Shown here: positions 5,354-16,500 of the stretch, one piece after another | Position numbering within the stretch: position 1 is the stretch's first letter | Layout: each line of letters opens with the position of its first letter | DNA from: a virus | Strand: one strand, 5' to 3' | IMG/VR virus record: IMGVR_UViG_3300025168_000875 | Span: 1 to 20,473 of that record | Length of the DNA: 20,473 nucleotides | Notes under the pieces: model-generated | What the model saw: only the letters and a program-made list of their open reading frames with translations | Told to the model about the DNA's origin: nothing | The model's database searches: none | Made by a program: the position numbers and the translations under genes

Positions 5354-6379
5354 ATGGCTGAGGAAAAAAACGTAGAGACTCAAGACGTGCTATTTGAGAC
5401 TATGCCAGGGGCTGACCCTGTCTCACAGGAGGATGCGGAGGGGTTTGAATTGGATTTAAATTTTGAGGATACAAATGAAGACTCAGAAGAGACTAATGAA
5501 GTTGAAGAAACAACAGAAGAAAATACAGAGACAGAAGAAGAGGCTGTTACAGAAGAGGAGGGAGAGCCTTCAGGAGACGAAACAGCAGAGGACACTACAG
5601 AAGAAATTTCTTCAGGAGATGGTGAACAGCTTGAAGACGAAGTAGAAGATAAAAAGAAATCTCCTATGGTGCCTAAGTCTAGGCTAGATGAAGTCTTGGC
5701 TAAACAAAAAGCATTACAGAAACAACTAGATGAACAAAAACAGAAAAAGACAGAAATATTAGAAGAAGCTCCTGAGTACGATTTTAATTCTAAAGAAGGT
5801 GAGTACCAACAACTTGTTTTAGATGGTGAGTCTGATAAAGCTAGCGCTTTAAGAAATGAAATAAGAACCGCTGAAAGACAACAGATGATGTTTGAAGTGC
5901 AGCAACAGATGGGCCAGACGGTACAACAAAGTCAGGAGGTTATGAATCTTCAAGCAGCAGCCAAAGAAATAGAATCTTCTTATCCTGTGTTAGATGAAAA
6001 TAGCTCTGACTATAATGAAGATCTACAAAAAGAAGTTATAGATCTTAGGGATGCTTTTGTTGTACAAGGTTATGACGCTGGTGACGCTTTAAGAAAAGCT
6101 GCTACTTATACTTTAGCTGCTAAAGCCCCAGAACTATTAGTACCTTCTGAAGTACAAGTACCTCATATTAGCCCAGATTTAAAAGAAGTAGCGCAGAAAA
6201 AGAAACAAGCTAATGTTACAAAAAAATTAGAAGCCGCAACTTCTCAGCCCCCAGAGTTACAAGGAGAGAGTAATGCAGATAGAGGAGAAGCAACATTAGA
6301 TGTAAAAACTTTATCAGATGATGAGTTTAGTGCATTACCCGAAGAAACTTTACGTAGATTACGTGGTGACTTTGCCTAA
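5354..6379 (+). CDS. Capsid scaffolding protein
   Basis: Assembly chaperone that templates the procapsid and is then removed, 341 residues. It lies directly between portal and coat genes, the usual scaffold position. The first 110 residues or so are extremely acidic (long runs of Glu, Asp and Thr) and are followed by a basic stretch VEDKKKSPMVPKSRLDEVLAKQKALQKQL that starts a coiled coil. The middle is Gln-rich and helical (MMFEVQQQMGQTVQQSQEVMNL). The segment EGEYQQLVLDGESDKASALRNEI recalls conserved scaffold segments of N4-gp56-type phages. The C-terminus ends with a short helix, FSALPEETLRRLRGDF, as in scaffolds whose C-terminal helix-turn-helix binds coat. No protease motif is seen. The start is fixed by the strong GGAG six bases upstream. 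Confidence 0.82.
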   Translation: MAEEKNVETQDVLFETMPGADPVSQEDAEGFELDLNFEDTNEDSEETNEVEETTEENTETEEEAVTEEEGEPSGDETAEDTTEEISSGDGEQLEDEVEDKKKSPMVPKSRLDEVLAKQKALQKQLDEQKQKKTEILEEAPEYDFNSKEGEYQQLVLDGESDKASALRNEIRTAERQQMMFEVQQQMGQTVQQSQEVMNLQAAAKEIESSYPVLDENSSDYNEDLQKEVIDLRDAFVVQGYDAGDALRKAATYTLAAKAPELLVPSEVQVPHISPDLKEVAQKKKQANVTKKLEAATSQPPELQGESNADRGEATLDVKTLSDDEFSALPEETLRRLRGDFA

Positions 6380-6398
6380 ACACTGATATAGTATATAA

Positions 6399-6523
6399 GA
6401 ATTCGTTAAGTCAGAACGACATCTGGCCCTGATCGTTACAGGTTAAACAACGTAATTCGTCTATCAGGACGTAAAAAGGTTTGAGGTCGCTCTCATAAAA
6501 GTTGCGAATTCGTCTCCTCACGA
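6399..6523 (+). repeat. Three-copy, about 54-base periodic hairpin repeat
   Basis: Copies start at 6400, 6454 and 6507 with AATTCGT. Copy 1 folds as TCGTT (6403-6407) with AACGA (6415-6419). Copy 2 folds as CGTC (6458-6461) with GACG (6468-6471). Copy 3 folds as TCGT (6510-6513) with ACGA (6520-6523). Closing bases differ between copies but stay complementary. Copies 1 and 2 each have a second small hairpin exactly 28 bases after the repeat start: CCTG/CAGG (6428-6442) and TGAG/CTCA (6482-6495). Copies 1 and 2 also share TCAG-A/G-ACG just after the 7-mer. Individual stems are only 4-5 pairs, so the periodicity is the stronger evidence. Confidence 0.6.
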
Positions 6524-6584
6524 TACGGGGTACACGGATTATTTTGCCACTCCAATAAGTTGGCAGGTAATAGTAACGTTTAAT

Positions 6585-6594
6585 AATATAGGAG
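6585..6594 (+). promoter_or_regulatory. Strong RBS of coat gene, shared leader AATATAGGAG
   Basis: AATATAGGAG followed by AAG gives an extended Shine-Dalgarno, eight bases before ATG 6603. It is identical over ten bases to the sites before scaffold (5338) and the accessory gene (7805). Confidence 0.75.
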
Positions 6595-6602
6595 AAGCTA
6601 TA

Positions 6603-7751
6603 ATGGCTAATACTAACTTTGCGTCACTGACCTCCGAACAACTAACGGCTTGGTCACGTGACTTTTGGCGCGTTGCTCGCAACATGTCTTTCATTAACCA
6701 ATTTGCTGGTTCTGGGTCCAATGCTATGGTCCAAAGAATAAGCGAACTTACCAAATCTGAAAAAGGAGCTAGAGCTGTACTAACACTTTTAGCCGATATG
6801 ACAGGTGATGGTATCACTGGAGATTACACTCTAGAGGGTAATGAAGAATCATTGCGTGCATTCGACATAACTGTTCAACTAGATCAACTCAGGTTTGCTA
6901 ACAGACTTGCAGGAAGACTAGCTGATCAAAAATCTGTTGTTAACTTCCGTGAAAATTCTAGAGACTCTCTTGCTTACGCAATAGCCGATAGAATTGACCA
7001 ACTAGCGTTTTTAACGCTTACTGGGGTTGCTTACACGCAGAAAAATAATGGTGCATTAAGACCTGTTTATACTTCAGGTCAAAATCTAGGTGATCTCGCT
7101 TTTGCTAGCGATGTTTCAGCTCCTACGTCTAATAGACATAGAAGATTTGATGCTACCAATGGTATCGTAGCTGGTGATGTTACTGCAACTGTTGCAGCTG
7201 ACAAACTAACTTACGGTGCTATCGTGGACTTAAAAGCCTACGCTAAAGACAACTACATCCGTGGTTTAAGAGGCGCTGGTAATGAAGAGGTATTTCACCT
7301 TTTCGTAACTCCACAAGTAATGGCTGACCTTAAACTTGATTCAGACTTCCTTGCTAACGTAAGGCAGGCTGGTGTTAGAGGACCAACTTCAGGGTTGTTC
7401 TCAGGAACTTCAAGTCTAATGGTTGATGGTGTAATGGTTCATGAATTCAGACACGTATTTAATACGTCTGGTGCTACTACTGGTGCATCAAGTAATGCTG
7501 GATCTGCTGGATACAAATGGGGCGCTGACGCTGACGTTAACGGTTCTGCTTGTATTTTTGCTGGAGCACAAGCACTTGCTATGGCTGATATCGGACTACC
7601 AGAAATGGTTGAAGATAATTTTGACTACGGAAACCAAAATGGTATTTCTGTAGGTAAAATATTTGGCTTTAGAAAACCAAAATTCCAAAGCGACATCAAT
7701 GGTGCCGTTGAAGATTTCGGTGTAATCAGACTAGATGTTGCTTACGCATAA
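6603..7751 (+). CDS. Major capsid protein, N4-gp56 family
   Basis: Main shell subunit, 382 residues. The N-terminal half carries the signature of the N4-gp56 / DUF4043 coat family: LTKSEKGARAVLTLLADMTGDGITGDYTLEGNEESL..FDITVQLDQLRFANRLAGRLADQ, then NSRDSLAYAIADRIDQLAFLTLTG. The C-terminal half contains VFHLFVTPQVMADLKLDSDFLANVRQAGVRG and AGAQALAMADIGLPEMVEDNFDYGNQNGISVGKIFGFRKPKF, typical of the HK97-like fold of this family. Placement after scaffold fits. Codon use differs from its neighbours: nine of ten tyrosine codons are TAC by my count, and CGT/CGC arginines cluster in the first 30 codons, as expected for a highly expressed gene. The start is fixed by GGAGAAG upstream; a terminator follows. 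Confidence 0.93.
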   Translation: MANTNFASLTSEQLTAWSRDFWRVARNMSFINQFAGSGSNAMVQRISELTKSEKGARAVLTLLADMTGDGITGDYTLEGNEESLRAFDITVQLDQLRFANRLAGRLADQKSVVNFRENSRDSLAYAIADRIDQLAFLTLTGVAYTQKNNGALRPVYTSGQNLGDLAFASDVSAPTSNRHRRFDATNGIVAGDVTATVAADKLTYGAIVDLKAYAKDNYIRGLRGAGNEEVFHLFVTPQVMADLKLDSDFLANVRQAGVRGPTSGLFSGTSSLMVDGVMVHEFRHVFNTSGATTGASSNAGSAGYKWGADADVNGSACIFAGAQALAMADIGLPEMVEDNFDYGNQNGISVGKIFGFRKPKFQSDINGAVEDFGVIRLDVAYA

Positions 7752-7764
7752 TCGAGTCTTAATT

Positions 7765-7800
7765 AAAGTGAGGGCCATCTTTGGGTGGCTCTCCTTTATT
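7765..7800 (+). terminator. Intrinsic terminator after the coat gene
   Basis: GAGGGCCA (7770-7777) pairs with TGGCTCTC (7786-7793) with one G-U wobble and an eight-base loop. After a one-base bulge (T7769), AAAG (7765-7768) pairs with CTTT (7794-7797), and a short T-rich tract CTTTATT follows. It sits between coat stop and the next ribosome site and probably attenuates rather than blocks downstream expression, since the next genes have no obvious separate promoter. Confidence 0.75.
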
Positions 7801-13529: not shown

Positions 13530-16500
13530 GTGGCGGAAAACAATACTCAACAAAAATCTTTAGTAACTACTAAGCCTACTACAGGAAACCCCCTTACAGA
13601 TATGTTTGTTAAGTCAAACATAAATGCAGCCGCTGGTATGAGGGGGCTTGCTAACCCCACAGAAAGAAAACCTCAAGCATATACGTACGGCGAACAATTT
13701 GGGCAAGCTTTTGAAGGAGGGGCTTCTCAGTTTTCTTCTGATGTAGAAAGATTTAAAGCTATAGGTAATCTTTTAACGGGTAGAGATAAAGAAGCTCAGG
13801 TTAACTTAAACTGGGCCGAAGTATCTGATGAAAACTCTTCTAAGGTACTAGCTCCTTTAGGATCTCTTGAAAAATTCTTAGACGCACCTAGTATGGATTC
13901 TTTCTTTTCTTCCGTAGTAAGAGCTACAGGTCAGTTTACTCCGTTGGCTCTTACTTCTATAGGTAGTGGACTAGGAGGAGCAGCAGCTTCTGTTTTAGGT
14001 AAAGCAGGGGTTAGCATGGCGGGACAAGCAGCTTTTAAACAACAGTTTAATCGTTTTGCTAAAAAGAATTTTATGCACGAGCATGACAAGATACAAGCTA
14101 TTAACGCCTTGAGTTATGGCAAGTATGCGATGAACCCAGACGGGAAGATCGTTTTAAATGGAGCGCTAGACCTTGCAAAAGCAGCTAAACGTGGTGGTAT
14201 AGCAGGGGCATTTGGGCAAGAGTATTTAATAGGTTCTGCACAAGCGTTAGGTGAGTACCAAGAAGCTGGCTACGACTTAACATCTGAAGAAGCCGCAGTA
14301 GCGTTAGGCTTAGGTGTACCGCAAGCTCTTTTAGGTACTTTGTCAGAGGTTAGTTTTTTTGGGTCTGTCGCACGTACAGCTTTACGTGATGCAGCAGCGG
14401 AGGGAGCAACTGCTGCTTCTAGGTCAGCTTCAGCTCAATTAGTTAGAGATATAGTTAGAGTTACAGCTAGCAGTGCTGGTGTAGAAAGTCTTACAGAAGG
14501 GGCTCAAGAAGGTTTGCAAGCTATGCAGAGGCTAACCATAGACCCTGATTTTACAGAACAAGAAGCACTTATGAGAGTAGCGGAGGGTGCGTGGGCAGGT
14601 TTCTTTGCGGGTGGGGCAAGGGGTGGTGTAGGTGGAGCGGCGTCTGGTGTTATTGGTATGGCTAGGGATATGGCTATAAAAGGAGCTCAATACAGCGCTG
14701 ATACCTTAGCTGGTATGCAGAAAAAAGGCCTAGATTTTGAAGATGGCCCTGTACCTGAATCTCAAATTAGATTTAATGCACAGTTTCAAGCTATGCAAAA
14801 CCCTGATAATGGGAAGAAAGCAGTATGGGTCCCAGAGTCTAATAAAAAAGATTTTAATGAAGAAGAAATAACTCAATCTGATTTATACAAAATAGAAATA
14901 CCGGGGCAGGGTACGCTTTATACTGCTGATAGTAGTTTAGCAGACCTAGCACAAAGTATTTCTTCTGATGACCAAGCAGGCGTTGAGAGCATGTTAAGAC
15001 AGTCTCTTGGCTACAGTAGACAACAGGAAGCATCAGATGGTTTTGTTGTTCAAGCTACTAATAAAGATGGGGTAGTAATTGATGAAGAATCTACTACGTT
15101 AGAAGGCAGGGATGCATCTATAGCTGCTATGGAAGCAAAATATGGAAAAGACAATCCTAACTATAAAGTTAGTTTTGATACCAAAGAAGAAGCTATATAC
15201 GATAGAAATTTAGAGATAGTTAGACTTAAGAAAGGCCAGAAAAAAGATAAAGCTCCTTTATCTCAGAGAACTCAAAAACTTACAGATGAAGAAAAACAAG
15301 ATATTAGAAACCAAGAATTTGCAGAAGCAGAAGAAACAGGGTCTCTAGGATCGTTAGGAGCCCCTAGAGAAACTACAGCTGTAGCTAATGAGGAAATATT
15401 TGGTAGGGCAGAGGAAGACGCGTACGAAGGTGATACTAATACTACTCAAAGTGATTTTCAGATTAGAGGAAAACCTGATTTTGTAAGGAATGAGGATGGT
15501 ACACCTTTTGAAGCAAAGCCAAAAGGGACTTTCCCTGATGACTCTCCTAAACAAAAAGATTTAGATGAGTTTAATAGAATAATAGAAGAAAGCGAAATAG
15601 ATTTAGACCCAGAAATAAGAGATAGTTTGCCCCAAAGTTTTATAAGAAAGTTTAATAAAACTAGTAGAGAAAATGAGGGTCTACAGCTATCAATTAGAGA
15701 AGGTATAGAAGGATACGTTATACGTACACAAACAGTACCAGGGGCCCAAGGTAAGTCCTCTGCTCTTCTAGCAGAAGAAGGTGTAAATGACGCCAAATCT
15801 ATAGCTAGAGCACAAGCTGTACAGAAAGTAGGTAAAGACACTAAAAAAATAGATGCAGAACTTGAAAAAGGGTGGGGTTTAATAGACAGAGAAACCCAAG
15901 AAGTTACACCCGTAAGTATGGTCCATCTTACTAATGTAGGCCGAACTATAAATCAAAGAAAAGAAGACTATAAAATGGAGGAAGAGCTAGGAGACCTTAG
16001 AACAGCAAGAGACGGTTTTACTACTATTATAGCGGAATTAGCGATTAACTATGATTTTCAATATAACGGTAAAAAAGTAATAAACCCTAAAGTAATAGAA
16101 GAAACGGGTGAAATTGTATCTAACCCTATGGACTCTAAAGAAATTGCTAGTGCTCCTGTGTACAGTCAAAATGGAGAGACTAAGACTGTACAAGATTTAT
16201 TAGGGGCAACAGGAATAGATATAGATACGACCCAAGCTTATGAAACAGGCTCTGTGTCAGTAGACCGTAAAGATAAAAAGACGGGAAGATTAAAATTTAG
16301 TAAGACAGGTAAAGTACAAAAAAGAAAAGTAGCTCCTGATATGGAGCCTGGTTTTTTTAACCCGAATGAAATTATTCAAGAAGCAGAGATAGATGAGTCT
16401 TTACAACAAGCAAAAGAACTTAGAAAAGAACACGCTAGTAAAAATGAAAGGTTAAATCTACGAGACCCCGAGTTAAAAAAAGATGAATATACCGAACAGA

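Follow-up and report, generated by a model that had tools for sequence, protein, structure and literature searches.

A predicted chain of six H-type pseudoknots in the leader of a phage coat gene

The coat gene and its transcription context

The window, a 20,473-nt stretch of viral DNA (IMG/VR record IMGVR_UViG_3300025168_000875), carries on its plus strand a coat (major capsid) gene assigned to Phage_capsid_3 (PF13252/phrog_334; 6603–7751), separated by a spacer of 223 nt (6380–6602) from a scaffold-like open reading frame (5354–6379). About 165 nt of the spacer (6403–6567) are predicted to form an RNA chain of six H-type pseudoknots. The spacer cannot be read as encoding a leader peptide, since stops occur in all three frames. 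Scanning IMG/VR with the coat protein provided 80 close relatives (coat identity 82–100%), and the spacer measures ~208–242 nt in those with a complete leader. Elsewhere in the window, an Endonuclease VII/HNH-like gene (586–1089) adjoins the small terminase gene on its upstream side.

An extended −10 promoter-like box (TG-A-TATAGT, 6384–6392, plus strand) ends ~9 nt before the first pseudoknot; the transcription start predicted from it lies at about 6399, about 2 nt upstream of this knot. A conserved −35 element was not shown. A −10-like box is found in most of 66 relatives, preceded by TG in 45 of them and ending 9 nt 5′ of pseudoknot 1 in 35. The array is followed by an AU-rich linker (6568–6602, plus strand, 75% A+T) containing the Shine-Dalgarno sequence AGGAG (6590–6594). 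In relatives, the distance from pseudoknot 6 to the start codon is 27–44 nt, with an A+T content of 75% compared with 53% in the array, which stops at a roughly constant distance from the ribosome-binding site. A terminator-like hairpin is located 3′ of the coat gene (7770–7793, plus strand), and the same kind of hairpin occurs in 42 of 50 relatives, while a control inside the coat gene gave 1 of 50. The −10-like box and the hairpin together make the coat gene look like a transcription unit of its own, with the array as its leader. Although transcript data are lacking, it is inferred that the transcript begins at most a few nucleotides away from pseudoknot 1 and terminates beyond the coat gene, the array being the 5′ leader of the coat mRNA.

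Architecture of the pseudoknot array

The array consists of three repeats of a ~53-nt unit with two pseudoknots each, and odd- and even-numbered knots alternate in type. The odd knots have CG-containing first stems (S1), and in the even knots a GTCG-containing loop makes the second stem (S2) in the consensus of the relatives. All six lie on the plus strand. In pseudoknot 1 (6403–6427), S1 pairs 6403–6406 with 6416–6419 (TCGT/ACGA) and S2 pairs 6410–6415 with 6422–6427 (GTCAGA/TCTGGC); 6407–6415 constitutes an alternative fifth pair of S1. Pseudoknot 2 (6428–6452) combines S1 6428–6431/6439–6442 (CCTG/CAGG) with S2 6434–6437/6449–6452 (CGTT/AACG). Pseudoknot 3 (6458–6480) contains S1 6458–6461/6468–6471 (CGTC/GACG) and S2 6463–6465/6478–6480 (ATC/GGT), the latter being short and weak in the window and reaching 4–5 pairs in relatives, e.g., GTTAG/CTAAC. 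In pseudoknot 4 (6482–6507), S1 is 6482–6485/6492–6495 (TGAG/CTCA) and S2 is 6487–6490/6504–6507 (TCGC/GCGA; TCAT/ATGA in the relative L020).

The gene-proximal portion, comprising pseudoknot 5, a linker and pseudoknot 6, is the most conserved one. Pseudoknot 5 (6510–6530) is built from S1 6510–6513/6520–6523 (TCGT/ACGA) and S2 6516–6519/6527–6530 (CCTC/GGGG). The linker TACACGG (6531–6537, plus strand; TAYACGG in relatives) is invariant in most columns across 67 sequences, and its final two bases start S1 of pseudoknot 6 (6536–6567), which pairs 6536–6538 with 6551–6553 (GGA/TCC; GGG/CCC in relatives). S2 of this knot pairs 6543–6549 with 6561–6567 (core TGCCA/TGGCA).

A sequence-only reading of the spacer had described a periodic hairpin repeat opened by the heptamer AATTCGT. 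The heptamer is indeed present at 6400, 6454 and 6507 and at no other site on either strand of the whole window. Its copy number is unremarkable, as at least three copies occurred in 21 of 100 shuffles of 20 kb; the unusual part is the clustering of all three copies within 114 nt. The stems named in that reading (TCGTT/AACGA, CGTC/GACG and TCGT/ACGA) exist in the window, as do the second stems at offset 28 (CCTG at 6428, TGAG at 6482). None of them is a simple hairpin, however; every one is a single stem of a two-stem H-type pseudoknot. In pseudoknots 1, 3 and 5, the first strand is marked by an AATTCGT copy, and both the 54/53-nt steps and the offset of 28 arise because the 52–53-nt two-knot unit occurs three times. 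The proposed alternative fold CCTGAT/ATCAGG is complementary in the window, but the complementarity is lost in relatives (e.g., L003). As for periodicity among relatives, the spacing of the repeats is conserved over 67 leaders (median of 53 from pseudoknot 1 to 3 and of 52 from pseudoknot 3 to 5), but the heptamer itself is not: it is absent from 53 of the 67 leaders and reaches three copies in the window only, and AATTCGT was therefore rejected as a conserved motif.

Comparative evidence for the fold

The fold was evaluated in an alignment of 67 non-redundant leaders of close relatives. The structure of 47 pairs is paired in 94.3% of cells (82.7% when shuffled), and double-sided changes affect 437 cells distributed over 31 pairs (117 cells when shuffled). 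In slid controls, with partners shifted by 1–3 columns, only 30–41% of cells are paired. G-U combinations occur in 97 cells versus 21 for A-C, which is the pattern expected for an RNA of the sense strand. A misaligned pseudoknot 4 led to the exclusion of a short alignment (A2) intended for a core model.

Covariation was scanned over all 24,531 column pairs against a tree-preserving null at E<0.05, using a custom script in the style of R-scape rather than R-scape itself. Nine pairs were significant, eight of which fall within the structure, while the ninth extends the second stem of pseudoknot 5. Pseudoknot 1 has significantly covarying pairs in both of its crossing stems, and significant covariation was also found in S1 of pseudoknots 2, 3 and 4 and in S2 of pseudoknot 6; S2 of pseudoknot 3 reached E=0.08. 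A swap test, which does not depend on exact columns, compared the pairing of each stem strand with its own partner and with that of another sequence. The own partner was better for both stems of pseudoknots 1–4 and 6 (z of 2.9 to 13), the values for S1 and S2 being 4.6 and 13.0 in pseudoknot 1, 10.0 and 4.0 in pseudoknot 2, 5.9 and 6.6 in pseudoknot 3, 6.7 and 4.9 in pseudoknot 4, and 2.9 and 5.6 in pseudoknot 6. The test is uninformative for pseudoknot 5, which is nearly invariant (S1 100% and S2 99.5% paired). The weakest helix is S2 of pseudoknot 2, with 71% of cells paired.

Compensatory changes, which the sequence-only reading had suggested looking for, are thus seen in both stems of most pseudoknots, and its proposal of a structured RNA in the coat-gene leader is strongly supported, the array being present in every close relative with a complete leader. 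It is considered nearly certain, on the strength of the aligned sequences, that the spacer, read on the sense strand of the coat gene, gives rise to six chained H-type pseudoknots maintained by compensatory change.

Single-sequence folding is far less telling. Nested folding of the array gave z=−1.28, with 15 of 200 shuffles as good, which is nearly uninformative, and nested minimum-energy folding was set aside as a test because it does not inform on pseudoknots. By contrast, the pseudoknot-chain score of the window array (31.0) lies far above that of shuffles (10.3 ± 4.7; none of 100 as good). A GC-richer region inside a 2025-aa virion gene (14,261–14,440) scores 33, which is 2.4 sd above its own shuffles with 1 of 100 as good; this region was considered alone, without relatives. 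As it reaches a similar raw score, the single-sequence score is supportive but not decisive. Under the earlier suggestion that equal folding scores in shuffled sequences would refute the structure, nested folding, which barely exceeds shuffles, would wrongly have led to the array being discarded; the relatives are decisive. Chance pairing in an AT-rich repeat without any RNA function could draw on the weak nested folding and on the equal raw score elsewhere in the window, but it is practically ruled out by the covariation, the independent test sets described below and the flat controls.

Distribution among phages

A covariance model of the leader detected one copy in the window and one in 13 of 14 longer contigs, the fourteenth being a pattern-match entry without an identifiable coat gene. 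Other loci found by pattern only had either a strong model match, in some cases at a contig end, or no model match. In the contigs searched, the array was not detected outside the coat leader.

Shorter arrays precede the coat gene in distant relatives, including the Acidovorax phage AP1, the Paracoccus phage KLEP18-1 and the Microcystis phage Mae-JY35, and arrays in relatives comprise two to six pseudoknots. The mean z of the pseudoknot-chain score is 4.1 in the window set, 2.7 in the AP1-like set and 1.4 in the KLEP18-1-like set, compared with ~0.1–0.7 in coding controls. The score is likewise high for the antisense strand of the leaders, most pairs being symmetric. In the AP1-like set, a covariation scan with the custom script ranked two genuine stem pairs at the top, in the first stem of PK_A and in the second stem of PK_B (E<0.005); a third match, between bases 4 apart, resembles a lineage effect. 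The window set averages 3.2 copies per leader (0.28 when shuffled) of a stricter module, defined as a first stem with CG ends and, behind it, a short loop that contains A; the AP1-like set averages 1.1 (0.16), while about half of the KLEP18-1-like leaders contain one to three modules and half contain none. Since the module had been designed on these three sets, it was frozen and then applied to two new ones. The R18-like set contains 1.50 modules per leader versus 0.16 when shuffled, and for 88% of its leaders no more than 3 of 60 shuffles do as well; the Mae-JY35-like set contains 1.14 versus 0.18; coding controls gave 0.11–0.25. Several R18-like leaders (L446, L440 and L432) show the same alternating order of knots as the window.

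Between lineages, the covariance model R1, meant to link the window set with the AP1 and KLEP18-1 sets, found no convincing match, with a single weak and partial match in the L288 leader (E=0.024). As the model does not bridge the lineages, homology across them rests on position and architecture.

Promoters just upstream of the array are predicted in 39% of the R18-like set (3% of shuffles) and 21% of the Mae-JY35-like set (4%). In the AP1-like and KLEP18-1-like sets, promoter-like sites were not above shuffles, except in KLEP18-1 itself (TTGACA-17-CATAAT). Given these two sets, a location of the array at the 5′ end of the transcript is not universal. Strong inverted repeats, several of them followed by a T-run, are found just before the coat leader in L083, L428, L456, L487 and L501; repeats of this kind, which several R18-like phages and the Aeromonas phage phiA008 carry, suggest an end of scaffold transcription ahead of the coat transcription start.

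In Bcep22-like phages (L361, L362, L363, L364 and L370), the gene immediately preceding the coat gene is annotated as a CsrA-like regulator; the Pfam CsrA cut-off is exceeded by two of the five and narrowly missed by another. The five Bcep22-like leaders examined do not contain a pseudoknot array. Three longer array-bearing contigs (L389, L390 and G010:C1:4600-4755) have a gene for a CsrA-family protein at another genomic position.

Possible functions of the array

It is probable, although inferred without expression data, that the array controls coat expression in cis. A processing element, a regulator-binding array and a packaged RNA, also considered in the sequence-only reading, cannot be separated here, although the positions of promoter and terminator argue for a coat-mRNA 5′ leader that acts in cis. 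5′-terminal structures of the ompA/papA type protect mRNA. The preferred mechanism, with a probability of roughly 0.45, is a leader that raises coat output by mRNA protection combined with ribosome docking; it rests on analogy, and there are no data on transcripts, half-life, protein or S1/30S binding. Serial knots would leave ribonucleases neither a free 5′ end nor a single-stranded entry site, while the knots and the AU-rich linker would offer the 30S subunit and ribosomal protein S1 a platform for docking (standby). The coat protein, needed in hundreds of copies, could thereby be made in excess over scaffold and portal. This choice is based on the location at a 5′ end, as predicted for most of the window set, on the roughly constant distance to the ribosome-binding site behind an AU-rich linker and on the conserved gene-proximal part, and the precedents of pseudoknot binding by S1 and ribosomes, of tisB and of gp32 rank protection and docking first and an autoregulatory operator second. 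Speaking against protection and docking, the pseudoknots of an IRES are dispensable for translation in E. coli (PMC9458429) and some lineages lack promoters; moreover, pseudoknot 5 and TAYACGG hardly vary, which suggests specific recognition rather than generic protection.

The main rival is an autoregulatory operator. Free coat, scaffold or a nucleic-acid-binding protein of the phage would attach to the array and from there cover the AU-rich linker as far as the ribosome-binding site, stopping coat synthesis once it accumulates. The layout, with a linker of 75% A+T, is that of gp32 acting on T4 gene 32 mRNA (PMC3014915), the nearly invariant unpaired bases (TAYACGG and ACGANA) look like a recognition surface, and the CsrA-family gene directly upstream of the Bcep22-like coat gene indicates that this junction may often be a place of post-transcriptional control. 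Yet no candidate binder has been identified, binding data are lacking, a repressor does not obviously need six knots, and the array shows no conserved CsrA sites (GGA loops), leaving the operator possible but rather unlikely. Control of the array by CsrA itself was rejected: there is no conserved GGA loop, and CsrA genes are present in some contigs only, elsewhere in the genome. A related and doubtful proposal is that the serial arrays, in which two to six H-type pseudoknots alternate, form an undescribed modular RNA class, serving as the standard leader of Phage_capsid_3 coat mRNAs and as an assembly sensor, on which unassembled coat protein (or a partner) would bind and throttle its own translation.

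The chain might instead block exonucleases at the scaffold–coat junction and thereby let coat RNA persist longer than the RNA of the upstream operon, without any direct role in translation. This fits the AP1-like lineage, in which the array comes right after the scaffold stop codon without a visible promoter, but the conserved −10-like box of the window set and the R18-like promoters suggest a primary 5′ end, which makes a block at the junction unnecessary in these two sets; this reading is quite unlikely. A separate small RNA (packaged, scaffolding or trans-acting), extending from the promoter to the last hairpin with the coat gene expressed by read-through, would agree with the compact and highly structured ~165 nt, with the promoter-like box and with T-runs after the last knot in a few relatives (e.g., L020 and L056). 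It is rendered very improbable by the lack of a consistent terminator between pseudoknot 6 and the coat gene and by the confinement of the detected arrays to coat leaders in the contigs searched.

Significance

The array is a widespread and strongly covarying RNA without an Rfam match, which is hard to spot by ordinary folding because each of its units is pseudoknotted; it illustrates that a genuine phage leader can be falsely rejected on the basis of a nested-fold z-score. Coat expression, among the highest protein outputs of an infected cell, would become a tractable problem of RNA control, and the natural series of two to six tandem pseudoknots offers material for studies of ribosome loading and RNA decay. 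The array would also serve as a marker for finding related phages.

Comparison with known RNA families and systems

The window has no match above the gathering threshold in Rfam 15 (best weak matches E=6.3 and 9.8), nine relatives gave nothing at lax E-values, and ARAGORN found no tRNA or tmRNA gene in the window. The nearest architecture is STAXI (RF01728), a pseudoknot that occurs in tandem, in two or three copies, in mobile-element contexts (PMC2864571). Both share tandem pseudoknots, but the phage array contains up to six alternating knots (six in the window), and its neighbours are a scaffold-like open reading frame and a coat gene instead of Ssb, topoisomerase, antirestriction or integrase genes. 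Membership in STAXI was rejected, as none of 10 phage records of the coat family match at E<=10 and cmscan of the window and nine relatives gave no STAXI match. Beyond STAXI, no tandem pseudoknot leaders in phages were found in the open-licence literature.

The operator of T4/T2 gene 32 mRNA consists of an H-type pseudoknot and an A+U-rich linker upstream of the ribosome-binding site (PMC3014915). The coat leader has the same layout, but it contains six knots instead of one, precedes a different gene and has no known binder. In tisB mRNA, a 5′ pseudoknot is needed for standby binding of S1 and the 30S subunit (PMC7708055). Its position near the mRNA 5′ end would be shared by the coat array if the inferred transcription start holds; tisB is a bacterial toxin gene with a single knot and a sequestered ribosome-binding site; sequestration has not been shown for the coat array. 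More generally, ribosomes and S1 bind preferentially to pseudoknots (PMC3858243). The dicistrovirus IGR IRES, a triple-pseudoknot RNA driving translation, is bound and unfolded by S1 in E. coli, where translation is independent of the pseudoknot structure (PMC9458429). It shares multiple pseudoknots with the array, but belongs to a eukaryotic virus and has a different topology. To judge from titles cited in PMC3997798, 5′-terminal stem-loops of ompA and papA stabilise mRNA; these stabilisers are plain hairpins, whereas the coat array is made of pseudoknots. A member of no family tested, the array resembles in its presumed working a structured 5′ leader.
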